A stretch of DNA of 64,000 bases. Origin: Favolaschia claudopus. Taxonomy: Eukaryota; Basidiomycota; Agaricomycetes; Agaricales; Mycenaceae. Positions 12,928-64,000 of this stretch are shown here, piece after piece. The translations under genes were made by a program, and so were the position numbers. Where the stretch lies: the NCBI GenBank assembly GCA_037176885.1, contig JAWWNJ010000043.1, positions 1,426,001-1,490,000 on the forward strand, read 5' to 3'. The notes below the pieces were generated by a model, which was not told the DNA's origin, searched no databases, and saw nothing but the letters and a program-made list of their open reading frames with translations. Numbering within the stretch: position 1 is the first letter of the stretch; every line of letters begins with the position of its first letter.

Positions 12928-14322
12928 TTAAACACGGATGAGATTGTGCTTGAGAGTATAGTCGAGCATGAGACCACCCCAGACGATCCAACCCATTTCG
13001 CCGTTGCTGTTGAAGTTTCCTGGCGCGCGCATCAGTTCCGTCGCAATGCAATGTAAAGAAACAAAACGGAGGAATAGACTTACTCCAGCAGCTTTTCGGC
13101 ACGTCAAGGTCGACCGTGCGGTATTGCCAAAGAAGGTGTAGGAACGTGCCGCCGATGGATACAACGAAGTACGGTGTGCCTTGGTTGTTGTAGACACCCG
13201 CGGCGGCGAGGAGGGTGATGAAGCCCAGACCGATGGTGATCAGCAGGGGACGAATCCAGCTACCGAAGAGGATAGCAGCTGCGGAGCGAAGTTAACGTCT
13301 GACATAGGATAGGAGGGAACGGGATTGAATCCGTACTTGAGCGAACACCCATCTTGACGTCGTCTTTGATATCTTGGCAGGCGTAGATAGTGTCTATTTT
13401 TCAGTTGAGTTGAGTAATGAAAAGTTGTTGTAAATTCAGAGTACTAGTAGGAATGACGTACCATATAACATGGTCCAGCACCAGCAGCTAGCCATGGCGG
13501 CCAGGAGGACAGGGTAGTTAATTGTGCGTGCGACCGAAATCCATGCGGTGACGAATCCGAAGTTCATAGCGAATCCGAGCCATGCTTGGGGCCAGTAGGT
13601 CACTCGCTTCATGAGAGGATAGATACCGAAGCTGTAGAATAATAATGGGTAAACGTCCTTTAATCGATTGAAAGAAAGAAAGCTCTTACAGAGGAATAAG
13701 TTGGAACAGCGCAACCCGCAGAGCGAGACCTTGTTCTGTCCGATAGAAGAACGCAACACCGGCGGCGTATTGGAGGAAAAGATATGAGACGGCGGCGAAG
13801 ACGGAGACACGGCCGCTGGCAAGTGGTCGGTGCTTGCAACGCTCTGCAGGAACTGTAAGCCGCAATACCCTAGCGGGAGAACCATTTTCTTCAACTCACC
13901 GACACCGGCATCCATATTGCGGTCGAAAATGTCGTTGATGGTGCACGCAGAGCTACGGAGTAGGAAGGCGGCGACGAAGGCCTTGCCCAAACCACCGAAG
14001 TAGGCATCAAGGGGCATGCCTGCTTTGTAGGCAGCCATCGTCAATCCCCAGGCTGGAAATCATTGGCACATAATCAGACGATGTACGATGCTCATAAAAT
14101 TGGGTTAAACTCACCGAAGGGCCAGAACATGAGAATCGTTCCGGTGGGCTGAATCGGAGTCAATATTCTTCTTGAGTATAAAGACAAAGACGAGGATAGA
14201 CTGACCTTCTCGAGGCGGATAAGCTCGAGGTATGGCCGGAAAGACTCCGGGAACGCAGCGAGAACCGGATGAACCGGCTTAGTCGCAGGCGCAGCCGTGA
14301 TGGTGGTAGTCTTCACGCCCAT
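12928..14322 (-). CDS. UbiA-family prenyltransferase (4-hydroxybenzoate polyprenyltransferase-like)
   Basis: Eight exons join exactly in frame to 323 aa: 14322-14206, 14148-14115, 14052-13900, 13843-13690, 13631-13462, 13393-13337, 13278-13084, 13019-12928. Both UbiA aspartate motifs are present. The first is NDIFDRNMDAGVERCKHR followed by PLASG; the second is YACQDIKDDVKMGVRST. These bind the prenyl diphosphate through Mg2+. Around them are about eight hydrophobic membrane segments. The closest family is Coq2, which prenylates 4-hydroxybenzoate in ubiquinone synthesis. This protein starts only about 40 residues before LIRLEKPTGTILMFWPF, with no evident mitochondrial presequence. It may therefore be a paralogue working on another aromatic substrate. 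It is divergent from a P450 gene. Confidence 0.88.
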
Positions 14323-35124: not shown

Positions 35125-35310
35125 TGTGAGCTCAGCCGTGACGAGCTTGTGAGTGCGGCTGAGTGATAGGCAAGGTAGTCGTGGGAGAGTAGACTTGACA
35201 TCTGATCTCCGTTGACAGCTGTCAAGTCTCTCTTTTCCTTCCGCCGCCGTGTCCGCTGCAGCCTCGACGGCTCATCCTCCTCCCTCGCACCATCTGCGGT
35301 CTTTTTGTCA
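35125..35310 (+). repeat. split direct repeat A1
   Basis: 186 bp starting TGTGAGCTCAGCCGTGACG and ending GGTCTTTTTGTCA. The first 46 bp recur at 40369-40414 and the remaining 140 bp at 40714-40855, with no difference that I can see. Confidence 0.85.
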
Positions 35311-36957: not shown

Positions 36958-37310
36958 ACCCTCCTCATCGCGTGCCCGTTTTCAACGGTGCGCTGCCCAT
37001 CATCCATGCGGACGCGCTCATCTTCATCGCGGACGCGCGCCATTCATCATCATCGCGTGCCCGTCTCAGACGGTGCACTGCCCATCATCCATGCGGACGC
37101 GCTCATCTTCATCGCGGACGCGCGCCATTCATCCTCATCGCGTGCTCGTCTCAGACGGTGCACTGCTCATCATCATCCCTGCGGACGCGCTCATCTTCAT
37201 CGCGGACGCGCGCCATTCATCATCATCGCGTGCCCGTCATCGGTGCACTGCTCATCATCTGTGCGGACGCGCCCTCATCTTCATCGCGGACGCGCGCCAT
37301 CATCTATCTA
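36958..37310. repeat. minisatellite, ~85-90 bp period, about four copies
   Basis: Units begin TGCGGACGCGCTCATCTTC (near 37005, 37093, 37181 and, altered, 37261) and contain GCGGACGCGCGCCATTCATC. The array lies inside the 6-kb element. Confidence 0.75.
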
Positions 37311-40162: not shown

Positions 40163-40370
40163 TGGGTCGCTCGGGGTCTCATTCCGACCCTCAGTGTCCT
40201 TTGCGTACGGTTCGGCCGTGTCTGTAGCTCACGCGGAGCGGCGGGAGACGAAAATTCGTCTCCGCGCCCCGTCCTCGTCGGTTGGAACGGTCGTTCCCCG
40301 CACACACCCCAAAAATCAGCATCGCTCATTTCCCTCTTTTGTCTAGCGATCACACAGACCTACCTTGCTG
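40163..40370 (+). repeat. split direct repeat B1
   Basis: 208 bp from TGGGTCGCTCGGGGTCTCA to CCTACCTTGCTG, repeated exactly at 40899-41106. It runs directly into A2. Confidence 0.85.
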
Positions 40371-40855
40371 TGAGCTCAGCCGTGACGAGCTTGTGAGTGC
40401 GGCTGAGTGATAGGTAGTGCTGGGTCGGAAATGTTTTTGGCCGTGTATAAAATACGGCCGCGCAGCGGCCGCGATGTATGCATTGTAGGGCTTGTATTTA
40501 ATGTATAAATACATGCGCCGCAGGCGAAAATTTTGAGGTATTTAATGTATAAATACATGTATTTTAAGGTGTATTTAATGTATTTAATGTACCTTTTCAC
40601 GCATCCCAGTTGTCTGCATCCCATTCCGCATCGTCAACCGACCACTGAGTTGCTGGGGCCTTGGCCGCTTTCTTGGGTGCAGCTACATCGGCTTTCGGCT
40701 TCTCCTGATCCGCCAAGGTAGTCGTGGGAGAGTAGACTTGACATCTGATCTCCGTTGACAGCTGTCAAGTCTCTCTTTTCCTTCCGCCGCCGTGTCCGCT
40801 GCAGCCTCGACGGCTCATCCTCCTCCCTCGCACCATCTGCGGTCTTTTTGTCACC
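40369..40855 (+). repeat. split direct repeat A2, interrupted
   Basis: Same sequence as A1 but split after its 46th base by 299 bp of unrelated DNA (40415-40713). Confidence 0.82.
40415..40713. repeat. 299-bp insertion within A2
   Basis: Absent from A1. The left half is AT-rich and carries AATGTATAAATACATG twice; the right half is GC-balanced. AGGTAGT occurs at both edges (40412-40418 and 40716-40722) but there is no clean target duplication. No inverted ends and no reading frame of note. Confidence 0.6.
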
Positions 40856-40898: not shown

Positions 40899-41106
40899 TG
40901 GGTCGCTCGGGGTCTCATTCCGACCCTCAGTGTCCTTTGCGTACGGTTCGGCCGTGTCTGTAGCTCACGCGGAGCGGCGGGAGACGAAAATTCGTCTCCG
41001 CGCCCCGTCCTCGTCGGTTGGAACGGTCGTTCCCCGCACACACCCCAAAAATCAGCATCGCTCATTTCCCTCTTTTGTCTAGCGATCACACAGACCTACC
41101 TTGCTG
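40899..41106 (+). repeat. split direct repeat B2
   Basis: Second copy of B; its end is taken as the right end of the 6-kb element. Confidence 0.85.
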
Positions 41107-41400: not shown

Positions 41401-41922
41401 TCACTCATTAATCTCAATCCCATTCGCCCTATCCGCAGCCTCCGTCTCAATATCCTCCTTCGACCCCTTCGTGAACCCATTCACCGTCCCCTCGTTCTCG
41501 AAACACAACACGCTCTGAATCTTCTTCGCGCCGATGCTCTGCGAGTCGTCGGAGAACTGCTCGAAGACGGCTTGGCCGGCGTTGAAGTCGCAGTTCGGGA
41601 GCCTAGCGGTTTGTAAGTATATCTGAATCGGGAAATGAGAATATAGGAGGGACGCACGGGAACGCCGCACAATCCGCATCGGCATTCAAGACGAGCGATT
41701 GCACGCCGGGGGTGTTGGTGCAGGATTCGAGGGTGATGGGTTTGCATGTTCCACTGCCGTTTGTGCCGGTGCAGAATTGCGGGTTGACGCGGGCGCGTGA
41801 GGCCTACATACATCGATTTGGTTAGCACATGGTGTGGGCAGTGAGGATAGACGCACCAGCGGCGCGCTGAACGCGGAGAGGGAGAGGACAGAGACGACTG
41901 CGATCGACGCAGAGAAGAACAT
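41401..41922 (-). CDS. small secreted cysteine-containing protein
   Basis: Three exons (41922-41857, 41803-41658, 41602-41401) join to 137 aa. The signal peptide is MFFSASIAVVSVLSLSAFSAP. The mature part has NPQFCTGTNGSGTCKPI, LESCTNT, LNADADCAAFP and LPNCDF, six cysteines in all plus one near the end (SVLCFEN), then GTVNGFTKGSKEDIE. A paralogue at 45591-46137 has the same intron positions and an identical last-exon length (202 nt). I do not recognise the family; such proteins are common in the secretome of Agaricomycetes. A TATA box in a conserved block lies about 90 bp upstream. Confidence 0.85.
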
Positions 41923-42011
41923 GGCGAAGAAGGCGAGAAAAGGAAAATTGAAGTGAAGTGAAAAAAAGGCGGAAGAGAAGAGAATGATGGAGTGAGAGAT
42001 GCGAGTCTGCA

Positions 42012-42017
42012 TTTATA
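42012..42017 (-). promoter_or_regulatory. TATA box of the secreted-protein gene at 41401-41922
   Basis: TATAAA on the minus strand inside TTCGCGAAACCTATAAAT, a block shared with the paralogue's promoter. Confidence 0.6.
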
Positions 42018-43260
42018 GGTTTCGCGAAGACGGATGGATGACAGCGGGACGCGCGGTATCCACTTGGCGGGGATCCGGGTGAAATGTCATGGTCGAGTAC
42101 ATACCATCAGGACCGGCGAAGCGCCGGTTGTGCTGTGAGATCTCTCGCATTCCAGTGATGACCCCAGTACTTCCCTGAGCTGCGGTCAGGAGCTTGGTAC
42201 TATAGTTCACTTCGAGATATTGGAAGTAGCTTGCGAGCAGGAGGCAGAACACGTACTTTTTCGGTTCGAACGAACCAGACATGAGATATCAACACAGATG
42301 GGCATCATTCGCATAGTCTCCCCCATGTCCAGCGTTGTCAACGTTGATGATCACCCGGGCTACCTTGGGTCGACTCGACGACTTCAAGGCATATTTGTTG
42401 GCGAGGCGATGTCTGAGGACTTCCGATTCGACAACACACTCACGGCGTGAGAGAAGAAGAAGCAACCCCGAGGAATCATCAATCAGGCTTGGGATGTCGC
42501 AGAATAAGCCCATATCCAACGCTTCGAAAACACAAGGGCGAGTTGCTGCATATGATGAGGGTAAGAACAAGTCGAATCGGCAATGGCCGATGATGGGTGA
42601 CGCGAGGGTTTACGAATATTTACTTTGTTCTCGCTGATTGCCGAATGTCACTTGTCTTCCACTCTCATCACCCTCGTCGACCGTCAGCGTGAATAGCCCT
42701 CGTTCGACTGGATTCTTGGCCAGCAGGGTGGGGTATCTCTCCGTCTCCTTCCATCATTCCCCGAGGAGGGGCTTTTCGCGGCGGATCCGAGTTGTATCGG
42801 ACTTGGGTGTGCGGGCAACGGGACCGAGGTGCACAGGCGAGAGGCAACAGAAGACATTTTCAGATGTGCAATGGGTACTGGTTGCGTCGAGCGGGACATA
42901 CTATTCCCCAGCCCGAGCGAGTCAGCTCTCTTTGTCGGAAGTCTATCACCAATCTATGACAGGCTGCGTGGTTCGCTGTTTCTTTTGGCATATTCGACGA
43001 CGACTCTTCGTAACCTGCGCGCTTCTGTTATGCTGGACTCTTAGGGGTGGCCCACAACGGATGACACGTACCTAGGCTCTGCCGGGCGAATCCAACCATG
43101 AGCCGAGGCACTGGACTGGTCCAGGATTCTGACTTCATTCTTCCGAGTCGAGGGTCAAATATTTGTTTTTAATCATCAAACTTCGGTTTGCTAAACCTCT
43201 GGACAGTGGACTCGAACTACAGTTAACTGGGAGCCATATCTCTTCAATTCACATCTCCCT
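42018..43260. other. intergenic region without supported gene
   Basis: Open frames around 42289-43075 on both strands lack conserved features. Confidence 0.4.
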
Positions 43261-43338
43261 CTAATTCACATCGCTCCGCTCAACCCAAATCGGCTTCACC
43301 TGTCCTCCATTCAAGGAATTAACGCTCCGCTCTTCTTC
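43261..43338 (-). repeat. fifth precursor unit beyond the in-frame TAG
   Basis: In frame with the P1 coding sequence, it encodes EEERSVNSLNGGQVKPI and WVERSDVN before a TAG. It keeps full unit structure, so the upstream stop is probably recent. Confidence 0.7.
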
Positions 43339-43769
43339 CTACGCCTCCTCCACGCTGCGCTCAACCCAAATCGGCTTAACCCGCCCGCCATTGAGCGAAT
43401 TGACGCTCCTCTCAACCCAGATCGGTTTGACCTGTCCGCCATTGAGGCTATCTACGCTGCGCTCGACCCAGATTGGCCTTTCACGTCCACCATTGAGCGA
43501 GTTGACGCTTCGTGTGCCTTCATCTTCAGACTGGAGTTGATTCGGGTGAGTTGTTCTACTGTATTCTCCTTCAAGGGTACGAAAGCACTCACTCCACGAG
43601 CAACCCATCCGTCGTTAGCCTCGTCTACACTGCGCTCGACCCAAACGGGGCGTTCGCTGCCGCCATTGAGGGAATTGACGCTGCGTGCGTTATTGGGGAG
43701 GGTGGGGGCGGCGAATGCACTTAGACTGCTGAATGCGAGGGCGGCGGAGATGAAGATGAAGCTGCGCAT
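43339..43769 (-). CDS. secreted repeat-peptide precursor P1 (candidate RiPP precursor)
   Basis: Two exons (43769-43593, 43530-43339) join to 122 aa. A signal peptide (MRSFIFISAALAFSSLSAFA) is followed by a run of near-identical 17-residue units of the form SVNSLNGG-x-x-x-PIWVER. There is one in exon 1 and three in exon 2, each with one Trp and ending in Glu-Arg before Ser. Reading stops at TAG (43339-43341). In the same frame beyond it lies a fifth unit (43261-43338) ending in its own stop. The layout matches precursors cut by kexin-like proteases and then modified. It is divergent, by about 430 bp, from a UstYa-like gene, the modifying enzyme type of dikaritin RiPPs. Alternatives: an unmodified Kex2-processed repeat protein or a surface repellent peptide. 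Biological activity is unknown. Confidence 0.75.
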
Positions 43770-44197
43770 TGTTAGGACCTCTAAATAGGGGGATGTGATG
43801 TAGGTCGCAGCAGGTATGTACACAGGCGTCTGGATTTTAAGAGGATTTCTCGCACTGAATCATCTGATAGCACCCGACTCCAGCTGGGCCTCAAAACGCT
43901 ATCACGCTGTTGCCGTCCCACGTGTACGATGCGGGGGGAGTTTCCTGCTCCGAGTCTTGAATATCCGACCGCAATTGCCGGCGCCACACAATTGAAGGTG
44001 GGCGGAGATCTACGGAGTCACGAGAAGATCCTTAATATTTATATATAATACAGGGTGGGTGGGTGGGCGTTTGAATTGTGCCTGGATTATCATTCCATGC
44101 TGCCCAAGCCTGCCTGCCAACCGACTACCGTGACGACTCCCGAGAAACGCGAGAGGGCGAAAGATTTCCGCTCTAACTCTTCCACCTCCCCGCCACC

Positions 44198-45274
44198 ATG
44201 TCCGCCGCATACCAGATTCTTCCCAACGACGCTGACGCGTCAGAGGACGGGGAGAGATATCCTTCGCCTCGCAGCGTCAGAAGTCGTACAAGTTTTCGAG
44301 TGGTGCTAGTTTTGATTGGGATAATCTGTGTTCAAGCTCTTGCTATGGTGGTCCTCTTATCTCGACCAACACCATCCCATCCGGATTCAAAGTCCGCATT
44401 ATTACTCTACTGTGAGCACTCTTCAGCACGATTCCCCGCTTACTTTCACCTAAACTCACAGCACCCGTCCAACATCTCGTCGAAGAAACACTCAAAGTCT
44501 ATCGTCTCGGTTTCGGCAAAGATTTGTCGCCTTTTCAAGTTCCCTCCTCTCCCGCCCTCGATGAAGCTTGGGAGGATTTGTATGACTGTGCGTTCATTTA
44601 GCTTCCCTTGTTTTCAAGCTTGAGTAATCGCTACGACAGTCGGGATTTCGCGAATCCCGAAAAGCGAAGCTGCGAAGCTACCCAACAAAACAAGTCCGAT
44701 ACCTGGAGATCCTGGGTACTATATCGCGGAGCTGGATACACAGTGTTTCATGAGTTGCATTGTTTGGTGCGTTCTTAGCCTTTCCTACTTATTCCTGGCA
44801 TTTTTTCATGGGACGCGTGGTAGAATATGATTCGAATGGTATCGTGTTCCAATCATCTCACTGGACCAGGATGCTGAGATTCTGAGATTTGATAGTCCCT
44901 CGACCCGGAATACTACCCAGAGCAGTGGAGTTACATCAAGCTCGTCGAACGCTCGCGGGAGCATGTCAGCCATTGTGTCGACGACTGGCTAACGCGCGTA
45001 GTCGATTATGTGTCATGTTGATACGAGTGTCATTGTGTTCGTCCCATTTTTCCTCCCTTCCTTCCTCCCTGCATCATTCTTGCATCCATCTAACGAATCG
45101 CGATTTGATGTAGATGGCAATGGAACGGCCGCTACGCCGAAAGCAAGGATTCCGCATGTTTGTAGGAAGTTTGAGCCGATATGGGAGTGGGGGAGGGAGA
45201 ATGCGATGAGGGTGGATTATGATGATACGGTTAGGATTGAGGACGGGCTTCCTGAGCCTTCGATCTTGCCGTGA
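44198..45274 (+). pseudogene. UstYa-like (DUF3328) gene copy 1, frameshifted
   Basis: Exons 44198-44411, 44462-44587, 44640-44761, 44824-44838 and one from 44896 follow the intact paralogue at 61909-63007 closely; exons 2, 3 and 4 have equal lengths. An N-terminal membrane anchor (VVLVLIGIICVQALAMVVLL) is followed by the family signature GFGKDLSPFQVPSSPALDEA and the metal-site motif HVSHC. Then the copies part. Between HVSHC and the next block this copy has 7 extra bases. After the last intron, near 45130, it lacks about 11 bases. Neither is a multiple of three and they do not compensate, so the end (IPHVCRKFEPIWEW) is out of frame. UstYa proteins catalyse oxidative cyclisation or related steps on RiPP core peptides; this copy is probably inactive. 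Confidence 0.7.
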
Positions 45275-45368
45275 TGTAGGTTTGGTGAGACTCTCAGAGA
45301 GTTTGCTTTGTGACACAAAACCCTAATTCATCTTGTTTAGCTTCGGTTGACAGTAGATGTTCTAGGTG

Positions 45369-45476
45369 GGACGCCCCGTATCCAGTGGGAATTTGGGTGA
45401 ACTGTCGAGGAGTAGTATACCATCAGGAGTCAGGACGGGCGAAGCGCTGAGTGGGATATCAGATACGGGGCGTCCC
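45369..45476. repeat. 108-bp inverted repeat in a promoter
   Basis: GGGACGCCCCGTATC at 45369-45383 is repeated exactly in reverse at 45462-45476. It could form a hairpin or be the remains of a small TIR element. The paralogous promoter near 42050 keeps only an imperfect version of one arm. Confidence 0.65.
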
Positions 45477-45500
45477 GCTGTTGTGTATCTTCGCGAAACC

Positions 45501-45506
45501 TATAAA
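45501..45506 (+). promoter_or_regulatory. TATA box of the secreted-protein gene at 45591-46137
   Basis: TATAAA in TTCGCGAAACCTATAAAT, 85 bp before the ATG, shared with the paralogue. Confidence 0.6.
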
Positions 45507-45590
45507 TTCGGGCTCGTATCGCTCATTCCAGCATTCTCTTCTCTCCCCTCTATTTTTTTCACTTCGCTTTTCTTTTCGCCTTTTTTCGCT

Positions 45591-46137
45591 ATGTTGTTCT
45601 CTGCGTCGATCGCAGTCGTCTCTGTCCTCTCCCTCTCGGCGTTCACCGCGCACAGCGCGCCGCTGGTGCGTCCATCCCCGCCTACATCATCCGTGTTCAA
45701 AGTTCTGTGTTAATCGAGTCTCTGCAGGCCCCGCGCCGAGTCATCCCGCAATTCTGCACCGGCACAAACGGCGGTGGAATTTGTGAACCCATCAACATCG
45801 GATCCTGCACCGAAACTCCGGACGTGCAATCCCTCATCTTGAACGCTGATGCGGACTGTGTGGCGTTCCAGTGTGTATCCTTTCATCGCGCGTCGATTCC
45901 ATCGTTAATCAGTTGTTTTTCCCGCCTTCTCGTAGTTTCCCAAATTGCAAAGGTAGCAGCGGCGAAGCCCCCTTCGAGCTATTCTCGGACGATTCGCAGA
46001 GTATTGGCGGGAGGCGCGTTAAGAGTGTGTCTTGCGATGAGTTTGAAGGGACGGTGAATGGGTTTACGAAGGGGTCGGCGGCGGATATTGAGCAGGAGGC
46101 GGCGGATAGGGCGAATGGGATTGAGATTCCTGAGTGA
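45591..46137 (+). CDS. small secreted cysteine-containing protein, paralogue of 41401-41922
   Basis: Three exons (45591-45665, 45728-45870, 45936-46137) join to 139 aa. Signal peptide MLFSASIAVVSVLSLSAFTA; mature motifs PQFCTGTNGGGICEPI, IGSCTETPD, LNADADCVAF, FPNCKG, ELFSDDSQSIGGRR, SVSCDEF and the ending EAADRANGIEIPE. Cysteine spacing is the same as in the inverted paralogue about 4 kb to the left. Secretion is inferred from the signal peptide; function is unknown. It lies between UstYa copy 1 and NmrA copy 1 in the left arm of the duplication, and no counterpart is seen at the matching place in the right arm. Confidence 0.85.
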
Positions 46138-46149
46138 AGTGGTCCATGT

Positions 46150-46331
46150 CCACCGTTAAGCGGATCGAGGTTGCTCCTCTTGCCCCAGAGTGGTCTAGCT
46201 ACATTGCGGTTGAGCTTGTCCAGGCCGTGCATGTCTTCTTCTTTGAACTGGATAAATTCGAGCAAAGCTTACTAGTATGGCTCGTTTGATTCTACTCTAG
46301 GAATGCACTCACTCGACGAGCAATCTACAAC
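46150..46331 (-). pseudogene. fragment of repeat-peptide precursor (P3)
   Basis: Minus-strand sequence reads LDKLNRNVARPLWGKR then SNLDPLNGGHGPL, matching exon 2 of precursor P2 at the right end. Just upstream an intron and the last codons of exon 1 (GCTCGTCGA before GTGAGT) survive. The signal-peptide exon is missing, replaced by sequence homologous to another part of the right arm near 61320. A truncated remnant. Confidence 0.7.
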
Positions 46332-47885
46332 TCTCCGAGATGTTCTTACACTTCTGTCGCTCAGCCTCGGCCACCAATTCAACGAATCTCTGTTTTCTTT
46401 TAGTCGGGCTTCTCCGCTCAATTCGGTCCGAAATCAACGCTCTCTGATTCGTCCGCGGAAACGGAAACGATGCGCAATTGGGTAAATTTGGGGCTTTTTT
46501 CTTCCCACCATCATCCCAAGCACAAAACCCGCCGTAGTACACACAACGCAGAGAGACGAGGCCACAAAGAGCCCAAAGTCCTCAAGCTGGTGACACGAGC
46601 CCTTCAATGTGCCGGGAGATGGCTGGTCGATACAACTTTTAATTCTAAATATTGGACGAGTCTACGACATCCACTCCATTATGCGTGCATCCAGCCCATT
46701 TCCAATGCTGCAACACTGCAACTCGCACACGGACCTTGGAAATGTCTATTCTCATTGTATACTCTGGATCATGCTCATTGCTTCCCTGCTCGGCGCCCCC
46801 AACGCTCTGCTCTGAGTCTTCCTGCATAGCTGCTTAGTCAGAAAACACCGCCACATTGATGAATTCGGTGATGCGAATTTTGGACGACGATCTGGGCAGA
46901 AATAATCCAGCAAATCTGCCTGAATACCTCTCTCTACTTTCTAAAAGTCTACCTGATCGCTCTTACATCTCTGAGGCACGCAACATCTGGCGCTACGTGT
47001 ATCCGGAACCTGGGCTTGATTGACAGCGCGTTGAATCCCACAGCGGAAATCCCGCTTTGCGCTGTATTGACCCTCGTCGGCATCCTGGCATACACTCAAC
47101 TAGATGATTGCATCTTACGGAAACTGGGATAAATCCTCGTCAGATTCATTGTTCATTGACTGTTCCCACCCTACCCACTGAGTGCGCCTCTGGCTCAGCC
47201 GTTCGCAACTGCGGGAACAGCGTGAATGAGTGTCTTTCAAGTAAACAATTCTCAAACTTCTCTCAGCGATGACGTGACTGGAGTCATACCCGAAACTGGC
47301 ACCATTCTGCACAGCGAGGTGCAAGGGAAATGTCTTCAAACTATGATTTAGGGTCTCGACTTCGAGCGAGGAATGCCAAGTCGCAGATCGTGCTTTGTTT
47401 TCTCCCCGAATTCGGAGTTTTTCTTGCACCAGCCCTACAAATCATAGTTGAGCTCCATTCACGCACTCTTAAGTGAAGTTTTCTGAACTGCTTGCTTTTT
47501 GAGGTCACAGTTTTTCCGTTTTGCTTCTCACTCTTCCTTTAGTTCTACCGCGGTGCATCGGCGGATGTGATCGTGAGCTCGGCTACGGGTGGTTTGAGAA
47601 GTCCAGGGACCGTACAGTATAGTAGTGCCCCTGTATTGTCTGTTACTCCCTGGGCCCCGGCGTTCCTAAGCGGGACCGTGCCGTGTAATCTACCTACCTA
47701 CCTACCTACCTCCTCGTCATTCGACGGTCTTCCGGCGTGCGACTTTTGGACTGATCTCGTTGGTAAGTCTGCGGAATGCCGCCGACGGAAGCGGTATAAG
47801 TTCGTGACCTGTTCACCTGCAAAAGACAAAGCGGAAAAACAGGAAAACAAATTCTCCACTGCTTCTATTTTGCTCTCTCGGTATC
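46332..47885. other. intergenic region with duplicated segment
   Basis: About 46330-46490 is homologous, inverted, to about 61130-61335 in the right arm. A minus-strand open frame at 47115-47429 starts with GTG and is not supported as a gene. Confidence 0.45.
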
Positions 47886-49215
47886 ATGCCTATCATTACA
47901 ATTTTTGGCGCTACTGGAACTCAAGGTTCGAGCCATTTTTTTTCTTACATGTCGACGGTACCCTGGCTGATGCTGTTTGTAGGTGCCGCTGTGCTCGAAC
48001 ACGTTTTGAAGGACGGGAAGTATACGCCCCGCGCCGTCACGCGCAACGTCGACTCGGACAAGGCGAAGGCTCTGATCGCCAGAGGGATTGAGGTTGTCGA
48101 GGGAAATCTCTGGGACAAGGAGTCGCTCAAGAAGGCGATCAAAGGGAGTGAGGCGGTCTTCGGGGTGAGTGCCATCTCATAATATTTTTGGTGTACATTT
48201 CACCCATTCTCTTTGACATGCCTCGACAGAACACAAACTTCTGGGACCCTGACATTTACCCTGCCAACCCCAAGAGCGAGGTCACTCAAGGCAAGAACCT
48301 CGTCGACGCGGCGAAGGAGGTTGGAGTTAGTTTCTTCCTCTACAGGTGTGCTTCTGCTTCCTGCCTTCAGCTCCTATATATCCTCTGCTTCTCAATTCTA
48401 CCCCTACTACAGCTCCCTCCCCAACGCCACAAAGGAGTCGAACGGACTTTACACCCACTGTTACCATGTGGATAGTGCGCCTTTTTGCCTTGATTCTACA
48501 CCTTAACTCTTTGCTGATGCCTCCACAAGACAAAGCTGAAATCGAGGAATACCTCAAGGCCTCCGGCATCCCCTATGCCACGATCTGTACTGGGTGGTTC
48601 ATGGAGAATCTTTGGAAGTACGTCTTCCCTCGCTTCTCCTCCGTCTCTATGCCGACACCACCCGACAGCTTCGGCTCCCTCGTCAAAATCGACAACGGAT
48701 ACGACATCCCCCTCGCGATATACGGACCCGAGGACAAACAAATCGGGACTTGAATCAGCCATGATTTCGGGCAGGCGGCGGTCAAGGTGTTGAATCGTTT
48801 CAAAGAGAACCGGGAGGAGGTGCTGGGGAAGGCGTATCCGGTGGTGAGCTATCGGTTCACGTATCCGGAGTTGGCGGAGGCGATTGGGAAGGGTCAGTAT
48901 CTTTCTTCCTCGGCTACTTGAAGAGGATTTTGGGGAGCTAATATGTGATTGAATGACTGGTAGCTCTCAAGAAGGAAGTGACGTTTACTACGCTCGAGAC
49001 GACTGGCTCGGCGGAGCTGGACGAAGCGGTGAGTCGCGCCTCATCTTTCTTCCCTTACCCTCGTTTTGACATGTACGATACAGTTCACCTACGGCGCCAA
49101 ATTTGGCATGTACAACAGTACTCCGGCGCCGAACCCTGATCTCGTGGCGCTCGGTGTCAAGTTTGGGACGCTCGAGGAGTTTTTGGAGGCGGAGGTTGTG
49201 CCGAGGTTCGCTTGA
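47886..49215 (+). pseudogene. NmrA-like NAD(P)-binding protein copy 1, in-frame TGA
   Basis: Eight exons keep one frame: 47886-47925, 47983-48164, 48230-48345, 48413-48474, 48530-48617, 48669-48892, 48964-49028, 49084-49215. All eight equal the exon lengths of the intact copy at 59597-60955. The Rossmann start is ITIFGATGTQGAAVLEH; later blocks are TPRAVTRNVDSDKAKAL, YLKASGIPYATICTGWFMEN and VVSYRFTYPELAEAIGK. At 48751-48753 the codon is TGA where the other copy has TGG (IGT-stop-ISHDFG versus IGTWISHDFG). NmrA-like proteins are atypical short-chain dehydrogenases that bind NAD(P), as redox sensors or reductases. This copy would end after about 191 residues and is probably non-functional. Confidence 0.82.
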
Positions 49216-49479
49216 AGATGAAGCATGAGCGGGAGGATAGAACACAGATCTGTTTGTTATGATCAGAATACACAGTATGCATTGTTGAATCGTGGAATGA
49301 GAATCGGAACCATTTCTTAAGTGGATTCGAACCGCGACGACGCATCACGAGCTGAAACAAACTGATCTATTTTCCCCCCTGGATTACAATGCCTGACTCT
49401 GCGAGTCTGTTAACAATGGAGCAATAGGCTTTGAGCTGGAGGGTCTCGTTGAACGAGAACAGAAAACTCACCTACTTGA
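49216..49479. other. short intergenic region
   Basis: Between the NmrA copy and a convergent secreted-protein gene; nothing found. Confidence 0.4.
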
Positions 49480-59184: not shown

Positions 59185-59596
59185 TACGATGAAGGTGGTG
59201 GGGGAAGAGAAGGTACTCCGGCAATCATTTGGGCCGATCAAAACGAAGATTCCCAGGATCTCATTGGCTCACAGATCGCTCAAGTGTTCGGAAGTTCCCG
59301 AAGAATCCGAAATTTGTGGGATTATTCCACCTAGTGCTGCTCCGATAATGGCCAAGCGTGGTATCACTGGCAAAATAGACTCAAGCCATTCAACAAATTT
59401 AATCGATGTACGGAGTCCAAGGGACCGCTTGCATTTATAGTTCACTATCAAAGCTCGATGCAACTGAAGCGGTCGCAACCTGAGAAAATTCATCGTAAAA
59501 CAACGGCAACAATGCATCCCGGGGCCATAAGTATTCTGAATCACTGATCATAACAAACAACTCTGTTCTACATATCTCATAGCTCAAGGTTCATCT
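59185..59596. other. intergenic region without supported gene
   Basis: Between the start of the F-box-like gene and the stop of NmrA copy 2; only unsupported short frames. Confidence 0.4.
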
Positions 59597-60955
59597 TCAA
59601 GCGAACCTCGGCACAACCTCAGTCTCCAAAAACTCTTCGAGCGTCCCGAACTTGACACCGAGCGCGACGAGGTCAGGGTTCGGCGCCGGAGTGCAGTTGT
59701 ACATGCCAAACTTGGCGCCGTAGGTGAACTGCATCGTCCACGTCAAAACGAGGGTAGGGGAAGAAAGATGAGGTGCGACTCACCGCTTCGTCCAGCTCGG
59801 CCGAGCCAGTCGTCTCGAGAGTCGTGAAAGTCACCTCCTTCTTGAGAGCTACAATTGATTCATTCAATCACATATCAGCACCCCAAGATATTCTACAAGG
59901 AGCCGAGGAAGAATTTAAAGATACTCTACTCACCTTTCCCGATCGCCTCCGCCAACTCCGGATACGTGAACCGATAGCTCACAACCGGATACGCCTTCCC
60001 TAGCACCTCCTCCCTATTCTCCTTGAAGCGATGCAGCACCTTGACCGCCGCCTGCCCGAAATCATGGCTGATCCAAGTCCCGATCTGTTTGTCTTCGGGT
60101 CCGTATATCGCGAGGGGGATGTCGTATCCTTTGGAGGTTTTGACGAGGGAGCCGAAGCTGTTGGGTGGTGAGTGTTGAACGAGGAAAATGGAGAATAGGG
60201 GAAATGGAGAAGACGTGTGACGCACTTCCAGAGATTCTCCATGAACCACCCAGTACAGATCGTGGCATAGGGGATACCGGAGGCCTTGAGGTATTCTTCG
60301 ATTTCAGCCTTGTCTTGCAGGGAAGTTAGCAGAGGGTTGAAGTCTCGAATGAAAGGAGCGGGCTCACTATCCACATGGTAACAGTGGGTGTAAAGTCCGT
60401 TCGACTCCTTGGTGGCGTTGGGGAGGGAGCTATAGCGGTATCATTGAGGACCACCAGATACTTCACAGTTGAAGTAGGGAAGCAGAAGCGCACCTGTAGA
60501 GGAAGAAGCTAACCCCAACCTCCTTCGCCGCGTCAACGAGGTTCTTGCCTTGAGTGACCTCGCTCTTGGGGTTCGCAGGGTAAATGTCAGGGTCCCAGAA
60601 GTTTGTGTTCTGTCGAGGCATGTCAAAGAGAATGGGTGAAATGTGCACCTAAAATTGGTATAAGTTGGTACGCACCCCGAAGACCGCCTCGCTCCCTTTG
60701 ATAGCCTTCTTGAGCGACTCCTTGTCCCAGAGATTTCCCTCTACGACCTCAATCCCTCTAGTAATGAGAGCCTTCGCCTTGTCGGAATCGAGGTTGCGCG
60801 TGACGGCACGGGGCGTATACTTCCCGTCCTTCAAAATGTGTTCGAGCACAGCGGCACCTACAAACAGCATCAGCCAGGTACGTACCGTCGACCACGAGGA
60901 AAAAACGCCACGAACCTTGAGTTCCAGTGGCGCCAAAAATTGTGATGATAGGCAT
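59597..60955 (-). CDS. NmrA-like NAD(P)-binding protein copy 2, intact
   Basis: Eight exons join to 302 aa: 60955-60916, 60857-60676, 60609-60494, 60429-60368, 60313-60226, 60157-59934, 59848-59784, 59728-59597. The glycine-rich nucleotide site is ITIFGATGTQG; downstream blocks are VVEGNLWDKESLKKAIKG, NTNFWDPDIYP, GIPYATICTGWFMENLWK and IGTWISHDFGQAAVKVL. Family members bind NAD(P) but often lack the catalytic tyrosine of classical short-chain dehydrogenases. They act as nitrogen/redox regulators or as reductases in secondary metabolism. It is the right-arm partner of the broken copy at 47886-49215 and lies next to an intact UstYa-like gene in the same direction. Confidence 0.9.
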
Positions 60956-61908
60956 GACAGCGAGAGAGCCAAGTAGAAGCAGTTGAGGATTTGTTTTCGT
61001 TTTTTCTGCTTTGTTTTTTGTGGTGAACAGGTCACGATTTACTTATACCGCTTCAGTCGTCGGCATTCCGCAGACTTACTAACGAGATCAATCCAAAAGT
61101 CGCACGCCGGAAGACCGTCGAATGACGAGGAGAAGATTACCCAATTTTGCGCATCATCTCCGTGTCCGTGGACGAATCAGAGGGCGTTTATTTGGGACCG
61201 AATCGAGCGGAGAAGTCCAACGACGACGACCCCTGAAAGGGAACATAGATTTGTTGGATTCGGGGGTGGGGCTGAGCAGCAGAATATTGATTGTAGGCGC
61301 AAGACCGGTGTCGAAGTAACATCTCGGAGAGTTGTAGAACGTTGGTTGGAGGAAACAGCGGGCGATCCCATCAATGCGTTTAAAATATTAAATCTTCGTC
61401 TTCAACTGTCTTGTAAAGTCCGGTAGCCAATGAACCACGCAGTCAGCAATAGAGCTCTTAGAGATTAGCAGATTGGCAGAGAAAGAGACAGAGTGTTCTC
61501 GTATTGCGCGCTGGTCATGATTTCGACAACAGACATGGTGGCAAAAAGCAAGAGCAGATTGATCGGCAGATGCCGGCTTCAGGCCAATAAGATCATTCCC
61601 ACGGTTGAAAGCAACGTCGCGCTTCAACCAGAAATCATTTCGTTGTCGATCTCACTGGACCTTCAGCCCGGCAAGATTGCGGCCACGCTGAAACTCGGCG
61701 AATTCCGATAGTTAATTGCTCCACGATTGGAGCCAATCTTGAGCCCATCACCAATGTTAATTTGTCGAACCCAAAGAATTATGTACGAATGAAACTCTCA
61801 ATGTTGATATTCCGCATGATTGTGAAAAGAGATATTTAGACTTCGAATGAGCGATAATCCTTCTGAGGAAGAGCCTCAACCTCTACTCCATCCAGTGAAA
61901 TGAACCTT
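60956..61908. other. intergenic region with duplicated segment
   Basis: About 61130-61335 is homologous, inverted, to about 46330-46490. No gene is supported. Confidence 0.45.
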
Positions 61909-63007
61909 TCAAGAGAAAATCGAAGGCTCAGGAAGCCCATCCTCAATCCTAACCGTATAATCATAATCCACCCTCATGGCATTCACCCTCCCCCACTCCC
62001 ATATCGGCTCAAACTTCCTACAAACATGCGGAATCCTTGCTTTCGGCGTACTCTGTTTAATGCGGTCGTTCCATTGCCATCTACAAACAAGTCACGACCC
62101 TCAGTCAAAGGAGATGACGGAAAACGAAGTAAGGGAGGAAAATGGGACGAACACAATAACACTTGTATCAACATGACACATAATCGACTGCCGCAGCCAG
62201 TCGACGCAATGGCTGACATGCTCCCGTGAGTGTTTGACGAGCTTGATGTTCCACTCGGGGTAGTATTCCGGGTCGAGTGCCTATCATCACCAAAGTGTGA
62301 GATGATCGGAATTTAAATACGATACCATTCGAATCATATTCTACCATGCGTCACATGAAAAAATGGCAGGAATAATCAAAGACGAGAATTGATTACTTAA
62401 TGGAACACACCAAACAATGCAGCTCATGAAACACTGTGTATCCAACTCCGCGATATAGTACCCAGGATCGCCAGGTATCGGACTCGTTTTGTTGGGTAAC
62501 TTCGCCGCTTCGCTTTTCGAGATTCGCGAGATTCCAACTACCATATCGATTACTCAGGCTTGAGGGCAAAGGAAGGGAGATTCAACGAGACTCACAGTCA
62601 TACAAATCCTCCCAAGCCTTGTCGAGAGCCGGCGAAGAGGGAACTTGGAAAGGCGACAGATCTTTGCCGAAACCAAGAGGATAGACTTTGAGTTTTTCTT
62701 CGACGAGATGTTCCACAGGTGCTGAAAAGCGATACAATTCCTCTTCTCAGTTGGAGTAATCGGGAGGATGTAGCTTAACGAGCTCACAGTAAATCAACGG
62801 TCGTTTTGACTCCGCAGCCTGAGGTGGACTTGGACCAGGTCGAGATAATACCACGAGTAGAACAAGACTCTGAATGCAGATTATCCCAATCAGAACTAGC
62901 ACCAGTCGAAAGCTTGGACATCTGAGGCTGTGAAGCAAAGAGCATCTTTCCTTGCCCTCAGAGTCCTCTGAGACGTCGTGCGGAAGGAGCTGGTACGTTG
63001 GGGGCAT
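61909..63007 (-). CDS. UstYa-like (DUF3328) protein copy 2, intact
   Basis: Six exons join to 260 aa: 63007-62788, 62721-62596, 62537-62416, 62340-62326, 62280-62153, 62080-61909. One membrane anchor (LVLVLIGIICIQSLVLLVVL) is followed by the family body: GFGKDLSPFQVPSSPAL, GDPGYYIAELDTQ, ALDPEYYPEW, HVSHCVDWLRQSIMCHVD, WQWND and HVCRKFEPIWEW. UstYa proteins carry two HxxHC motifs. The second (HVSHC) is intact, but the place of the first reads CFMSC-INMIRM, so both histidines are replaced; copy 1 shows the same. Family role: copper-dependent oxidative cyclisation, or desaturation or chlorination, of RiPP peptides at the secretory membrane. A peptide precursor gene is divergent from it, about 680 bp away. 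Confidence 0.85.
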
Positions 63008-63687
63008 GAATCCGAGGTGGAAGACTAGACTACTGAGTTAGAGGGGACTCCTCAGGATAGTCGATAGACAGGCGGGCCGGCCGTACGGGTGAATGTACAT
63101 GTAAAAGCCACCCTGCGATAATGACCTACATAGACATAAGTAGTTGGAAATCTTGGCGCCCGCGATTGTTATCTGCTATCGAGACACTTGAGCGGAGAAT
63201 CATCCCCGCTCACTGGCGCGTTGGGGTAATGGCCGACATTAGCGGCTGTTGAGTACGCTGGAGCGGGAACTCATCTCCGTCGACCCTTATCTTTGTGTTG
63301 CAATTCAGGCGCCGGTGATTCAAAGTTTGTACCTTGAAACTATTAAGTAGAGAAACTCATCTCCACCCACTGGCAAGCTGAGATCATGGCCGACATTAGC
63401 GGCTATTGAACACACTGGAGCGGAAAACTCATCTTGCTCTACCTTGGCCTTGTGCTCGAATTTAAGACGCCGGCGATTTCTACCGTGGGGCCAGCGCGGT
63501 AAACTCATTTCCGCCCCGCGAAATCGTCCATGTGGCGACAATTCGACTAGATTTCAGTGAGGAACAGCTGGCCAGCTATTGATATTGTATCAGATAATTC
63601 AAGCTCCCGACGAAGATATTTAAATGGATGGGCTTGAAACTACCTCTCGCGGTTCAATCATCCATCCCCTGCATTTATTCGACACAA
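63008..63687. promoter_or_regulatory. divergent promoter region of UstYa copy 2 and precursor P2
   Basis: No gene. It contains imperfect direct repeats of GGAG-CGGAA-ACTCATC-like sequence (near 63191, 63260, 63350, 63419, 63498) with GGCCGACATTAGCGGCT between some of them (near 63232 and 63386). These could be regulatory repeats shared by the pair. Confidence 0.45.
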
Positions 63688-64000
63688 ATGCGCAGCTTCA
63701 TCTTCGTCTCCGTCGCACTCGCACTCAGCTCCTTTGCTGCCCCAACTCTCCCTAATGACGTACACAGCGTCAAATCCCTGAATGCAGGCCGTGAGCTCCC
63801 CATGGGGCTCGAGCGCAGCGTGGACGAGGCTAACAATGGATGGGTTGCTCGTCGCGTAAGTGCATCCCTAGAACCAAAGGAGCCATAAGCTTAGCGTGAA
63901 TCCAGTCGACAGTGGACAAACTTAACGGCAATGTAGCCAGACCACTCTGGGGCAAAAGGGGCAGCCTCGATCCGCTTAACGGTGGACATGGACCGATTTG
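63688..64000 (+). CDS. secreted repeat-peptide precursor P2, 3' end outside window
   Basis: Exon 1 (63688-63855) encodes a signal peptide (MRSFIFVSVALALSSFAAP) and one degenerate unit (SVKSLNAGRELPMGLERS), then SVDEANNGWVARR. Exon 2 starts at 63906 and has VDKLNGNVARPLWGKR and SLDPLNGGHGPI before the window ends. The signal-peptide region and exon boundary match P1, but the units here carry a Lys-Arg (GKR), a proper kexin site, and a PLW core instead of PIWVE. Divergent from intact UstYa copy 2. Product unknown; same alternatives as P1. Confidence 0.75.

Follow-up and report, generated by a model that had tools for sequence, protein, structure and literature searches.

Dikaritins, as set out in the available text of PMC9233826 and PMC7329392, have been described from the Ascomycota, with mostly tyrosine-based cores and Kex2 sites in their precursors. 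According to the same sources cyclisation of the tyrosine-containing cores of ustiloxin, phomopsin and asperipin-2a depends on UstYa proteins, and victorin is linked through phenylalanine. A tyrosinase is also required for ustiloxin and phomopsin (PMC7329392, text as available). The epichloecyclins (GigA) resemble the system presented below in having a secreted multi-unit precursor with imperfect repeats, and differ from it in their ascomycete origin and Tyr-Ile cross-link (PMC9233826, in the portion available). In plants, a copper enzyme links the indole of tryptophan in the ribosomal peptides of the lyciumin-type burpitides (PMC12186524, in part); this is an analogy only, since the cyclases there are BURP-domain proteins.

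UstYa genes are also plentiful in basidiomycetes, 16 being given for Pleurotus in the accessible part of PMC8893723. Kex2-repeat proteins were defined by Umemura 2020 as having at least three repeats, each no shorter than 8 residues, between KR, KK, RK or RR, and 103 of the 1680 found in basidiomycetes were near DUF3328 genes (PMC7329392, available text). The type P-3 of that survey, from Fonsecaea, Cladophialophora, Galerina, Psilocybe and Coprinellus, is like the precursor reported here, by description only, in having basidiomycete members, a tryptophan accompanied by proline in the repeat and DUF3328 near four of its seven members (PMC7329392, same portion). The idea of a basidiomycete system of this kind is thus less new than first thought, as the available text of Umemura 2020 already has basidiomycete repeat precursors in the neighbourhood of DUF3328 genes, and also a type that combines tryptophan with proline (PMC7329392). 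Mycena is absent from the main text of that paper, as far as that text is available (PMC7329392). No account of DUF3328 in Mycena, of UstYa in Favolaschia or of a UstYa-modified tryptophan peptide was found in a literature search that covered little of the subscription journals.

The DNA analysed here is a window of 64,000 nucleotides (C43:1426001-1490000) from the 264.6-Mb assembly of Favolaschia claudopus (Mycenaceae). It probably carries one copy of a dikaritin-like RiPP system that the Mycenaceae encode in two genes, one for a precursor with tryptophan-centred units and one, divergently placed, for a UstYa protein; the gene anatomy, the conservation of the repeats, purifying selection and linkage on the same contig were observed, and secretion, cleavage, modification and a product are inferred.

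The precursor gene and its units

The features of the left locus (C43L) are as follows.

43593..43769, minus strand: left precursor exon 1, encoding a signal-type N-terminus (judged by inspection), unit 1 SVNSLNGGSERPVWVER and the type-2 unit VDEANDGWVARG
43531..43592, minus strand: left precursor intron, 62 nt, GT-AG
43339..43530, minus strand: left precursor exon 2, units 2-4 followed by the stop, with the 17-residue periodicity
43261..43338, minus strand: fifth type-1 unit, in frame, beyond the TAG stop and so outside the ORF
44198..45274, plus strand: left UstYa (DUF3328) gene, six-exon layout aligned to the intact C226 copy, frame disrupted in exons 3 and 5
44749..44763, plus strand: first HxxHC motif (HELHC) of the left UstYa, not in frame with the portion of exon 3 that precedes it
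44962..44976, plus strand: second HxxHC motif (HVSHC) of the left UstYa

The left precursor, encoded on the minus strand in two exons, is a secreted-type protein of 122 amino acids. Its hydrophobic N-terminal stretch ends, by inspection, in AFAAP, and the Ala-Pro that closes this stretch is invariant in 10 aligned precursors. It is followed by four type-1 units (SVNSLNGGSERPVWVER, SVNSLNGGRERPIWVER, SVDSLNGGQVKPIWVER and SVNSLNGGRVKPIWVER) and the single type-2 unit. The type-1 units are 17 residues long and centred on tryptophan, with a start-to-start spacing of 51 nt where they adjoin. The ORF has a repeat score of 28, whereas 20 dinucleotide shuffles of the entire window never exceed 6. Support for the intron model comes from the copies on contig C226 and at the right end of the window (C43R), for which the identical model gives the very proteins of the database entries P0130 and P0131. 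In the precursor on contig C17 the frame stays open across the counterpart of the fifth unit. The left UstYa gene starts 428 bp from the precursor start in divergent orientation; it is matched in the genome by the family profile at C43:1470416-1470991 (E 7.6e-10), and one of its exons is matched by Pfam at E 3e-4, below the cut-off. The arrangement originally predicted, a signal-type N-terminus and four 17-residue tryptophan units divergent from a DUF3328 gene, is therefore present where it was proposed.

Across the family the type-1 units follow the consensus S-V-N-S-L-N-G-G-x-x-R-P-[VI]-W-V-[EK]-R, in which the two residues after LNGG vary from unit to unit, and the type-2 units follow V-D-x-A-N-D-G-W-x-x-[PR]-R, DHANDGWAIPR-like stretches being pattern-matched in 9 of 12 proteins. 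An anchor blind to proline and tryptophan, [LFW][NS][GA], occurred 47 times in the 12 proteins, with tryptophan within 9 residues in 42 cases and P-x-W in 38; of the five anchors that lack tryptophan, four belong to the C226 and C43R copies (two diverged units and two tail stretches) and the fifth to an N-terminal stretch of P0009. The ends of the units were compared in a set of 40 from 11 proteins, with P0009 left out and the pattern requiring proline and either tryptophan or glycine. Here the closing position is arginine in 37 of 39, and the residue before it is E in 27 (25 of which read ER), K in 9, H in 2 and G in 2. A KR end is found in register in nine of the 40 units, five of them in M. 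rebaudengoi and M. vulgaris (three in the M. rebaudengoi precursor), and one more, VGKR, lies out of register. All four type-1 units of the left precursor end in ER and none of KR, KK, RK or RR falls between its units, so that it lies outside the Kex2-repeat definition of Umemura 2020; a survey with that dibasic requirement misses ER-type precursors such as this one (PMC7329392, text as available).

None of the four F. claudopus precursor models contains a tyrosine. The few tyrosines of the Mycena entries fall outside the units, and one non-unit anchor stretch of P0009 has a tyrosine. Judged from these sequences, tryptophan would be the only conserved aromatic residue open to the UstYa protein, if that protein does act on the precursor.

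Copies of the pair and the state of the UstYa genes

The right end of the window carries a second version of the pair, diverged and inverted (61909-64091), and an isolated exon fragment of the same precursor lineage is found near the left locus.

61909..63007, minus strand: right UstYa gene, 76% DNA identity to the left UstYa, with the exon-3 insertion in common
63688..63855, plus strand: right precursor exon 1, lineage B, diverged units; the protein equals P0131
63906..64000, continuing past the window to 64091, plus strand: right precursor exon 2, with PLWGKR and PIWTHR units
46141..46222, minus strand: lineage-B precursor exon fragment, 82 nt, 91% identical to 63913-63994

A search of the F. 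claudopus genome with the precursor gave 13 matches, 12 of them on contigs C43, C17, C226 and C143; the weak thirteenth, on C237 (E 0.067), looks unrelated. The DNA pattern of the unit matched 12 times in the 264.6 Mb (six on C43, five on C17 and one on C143) and its reversed control not at all; there was no match on C226, where the units have diverged. All four contigs have UstYa matches next to the precursor. As the copies on these contigs are related segments, the four pairings are not independent.

Several other features surround the two loci. A large inverted duplication (43261-49266 and 59544-64000, about 10 kb apart) takes in the precursor, the UstYa and a block whose right copy has an NmrA-like gene; the block itself (47710-49266 against 61132-59544) is 87% identical. 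Beside the left locus, a second inverted pair (41401-42060 and 45462-46137, 74% identical) surrounds a small secreted-type protein with several cysteines; ORF 41484-42086, the one ORF of this pair that was tested, had no match in Pfam. The window also holds 100% identical repeats of 208 bases (40163-40370 and 40899-41106) and 140 bases (35171-35310 and 40714-40853), a minisatellite at 36965-37304 (85-base period, 4 copies, 90% matches) and a UbiA prenyltransferase-like ORF at 13439-14059 (E 6e-14).

The C226 UstYa copy is intact, with 254 amino acids and a match to PF11807 (UstYa) at E 1.2e-50. The predicted structure (pLDDT 85) has one membrane-type helix at the N-terminus. In an alignment of 49 sequences the four histidines and the first cysteine of the two HxxHC motifs are invariant and the second cysteine is conserved in at least 90%. 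In the left copy a short insertion in exon 3 shifts the frame before HELHC and a further shift follows the second motif; this broken UstYa frame leaves the left pair short of an intact system. HELHC is absent from the database models of the C43R (P0011) and C17 (P0021) copies. The intact C226 gene adjoins a diverged type of precursor, and the best-preserved precursors, those of C43L and C17, the latter with the most units of all copies, adjoin disrupted UstYa genes. One identical 5-nt insertion (44738-44742 in the left copy) precedes the first HxxHC motif in the left, right and C17 copies, which are 0.30-0.47 apart in dS and of which all pairs look constrained; recent gene conversion might be guessed at as the source of this sharing.

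It is quite possible, if short of probable, that the copies in the window are decaying relics of a segmental duplication, the system being real in the family and dead at this locus, a reading compatible with a dikaritin-like explanation for the family. The frame-disrupting insertion common to both UstYa copies of the window and the further shifts in the left one would fit with this, as would the TAG that precedes the last unit of the left precursor and the more broken pieces nearby: a third, broken precursor with UstYa remnants lies just outside the window (C43:1491548-1492016 and 1495512-1495822), and further pieces lie on C143. On the other hand the right precursor is intact, and so is the left precursor ORF, the mature part of which is constrained. 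Comparison of the C43L precursor with that of C17 gives a dN/dS of 0.17 for the mature region (17.5 synonymous against 11.5 nonsynonymous changes; Fisher 7e-6) and one of 0.74 for the signal part, values that homogenisation of the units could bias; the C226-C43R pair, with 3 synonymous and 4 nonsynonymous changes, is too similar for a reading of dN/dS. For UstYa dN/dS lies between 0.15 and 0.26 in all ten pairs, disrupted copies included, so that the UstYa copies in the window were under selection for most of their history and any death is recent.

Recurrence of the pair in Mycena

Among the matches listed, the precursor was confined to Favolaschia, Mycena and a single metagenome contig, with 7 proteins from the sequence search and 10 from a profile search that scored only 7995 candidates. 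The holders are Mycena olivaceomarginata, capillaripes (two), rosella, vulgaris, rebaudengoi and crocata, together with two F. claudopus proteins and one metagenome protein. In all six named Mycena species the main precursor and the highest-scoring UstYa of the species (among the best 120 of 139 UstYa matches) lie on contigs of equal size: 117150 in olivaceomarginata, 1708565 in capillaripes, 248372 in rosella, 982824 in vulgaris, 570808 in rebaudengoi and 332214 in crocata, where the locus tags of the pair are 1034021 and 1034024. Since the sizes are equal, precursor and best UstYa are very probably on the same contig in each species, which is a looser relation than the adjacency directly observed in F. 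claudopus alone. If each precursor is taken to fall on one of the UstYa contigs listed for its species, the chance of reaching the contig of the best UstYa six times is 1 in 3780, from hand-counted contigs taken as equally likely (4x3x5x7x3x3, in the species order above).

The original prediction was to be abandoned if homologues of the precursor were routinely found away from any UstYa gene, and this is not what the Mycena genomes display. The exceptions are a weak second match in M. capillaripes (P0009, contig 1087408), with no UstYa on that contig among the best 120 of 139 matches, and the metagenome contig of 2702 bases, on which no UstYa partner was seen. Conversely, the 13 closest UstYa proteins (P0010-P0022, among the best 120 of 139) come from 11 species, four of which (venus, leptocephala, alexandri and latifolia) gave no precursor. 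In a tree of the 120 these 13 are strongly clustered, their label needing 3 changes against a mean of 12.6 in shuffles, and they are not one clade, M. rebaudengoi P0022 falling outside and two paralogues inside.

The constraint on the C43L and C17 precursors beside disrupted UstYa genes would be accounted for if the precursor were an ordinary secreted repeat protein that yields linear peptides, in the manner of Rep1 or MiSSP8, and the UstYa a conserved neighbour without action on it. Nor is tryptophan diagnostic, as it is about equally frequent in repeats with (20.5%) and without (24.5%) DUF3328 neighbours in the available text of Umemura 2020 (PMC7329392). Such a protein would seem unlikely, however, in view of the equal contig sizes in the six Mycena species and of the divergent layout at C43L, C43R and C226, where a few hundred bases separate the start codons. 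A chance meeting of a repeat protein with one of many UstYa genes, for which the 53 exon-level PF11807 matches in the 264.6-Mb genome and the related segments that hold the F. claudopus copies might speak, is very improbable and close to refuted by the recurrence of the arrangement, by contig, in six other species at the best-match contig each time.

A probable dikaritin-like system and its proposed working

The preferred reading is a dikaritin-like pair. The likeness lies in a secreted-type precursor with several near-identical core units that adjoins a UstYa/DUF3328 gene with two HxxHC motifs, an association found at C226 and, by equal contig size, in the six Mycena species, the first motif being disrupted at the two loci of the window. 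The differences are the basidiomycete host, tryptophan as the conserved aromatic residue, units free of the tyrosine that would serve a side-chain ether cross-link in the F. claudopus precursors, and junctions that are mostly ER, the left precursor having no Kex2 dibasic sites between its units. At least 19 matches to the tyrosinase family PF00264 are present in the F. claudopus genome, none of them on C43, C17, C226 or C143, and no tailoring enzyme of the known pathways was evident in a Pfam scan of 26 ORFs of the window, a scan weakened by introns. What has been found is a conserved precursor-UstYa pair, so far only in the Mycenaceae, that is dikaritin-like and lacks, of the features tested, the tyrosine core and, at the locus in the window, the dibasic sites and the tyrosinase. 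The original prediction of a basidiomycete RiPP with a tryptophan-centred core accordingly stands as regards the linked repeat precursor and UstYa, the tryptophan-centred units and the lack of tyrosine in the four models, and falls short in the broken frame of the left UstYa and in the lack of a dibasic Kex2 site in most units.

Kex2 cleaves at KR and perhaps also at PR. We infer that the precursor, with its two kinds of tryptophan-centred units, would enter the secretory pathway and be cut after the arginine that ends nearly every unit, presumably by Kex2 at KR and, at ER, by a protease that is more tolerant or of another kind. A membrane-anchored UstYa with two HxxHC motifs, in the ER or Golgi, may then oxidise the core using the tryptophan, and the modified short peptides would be secreted. 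The first motif is disrupted in both UstYa copies of the window, so that any modification the left precursor still undergoes would depend on an enzyme from another locus, for instance C226.

A more specific proposal is tentative and on balance doubtful: that the pair may represent a RiPP class particular to the Mycenaceae, in which UstYa modifies or cross-links tryptophan instead of tyrosine in two kinds of core and in which processing at arginine only (ER, KR or PR) has hidden the precursors from Kex2-based mining. If true, this would be the first UstYa-dependent peptide of a basidiomycete, as far as the literature found can tell. Surveys that require dibasic sites will miss precursors of the ER type. 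Basidiomycetes have many UstYa genes, and a conserved pair in which tryptophan is the sole conserved aromatic residue offers a concrete candidate substrate with which the UstYa proteins of mushrooms could be tested. Its recurrence in related mushrooms points to a candidate family of peptide natural products.
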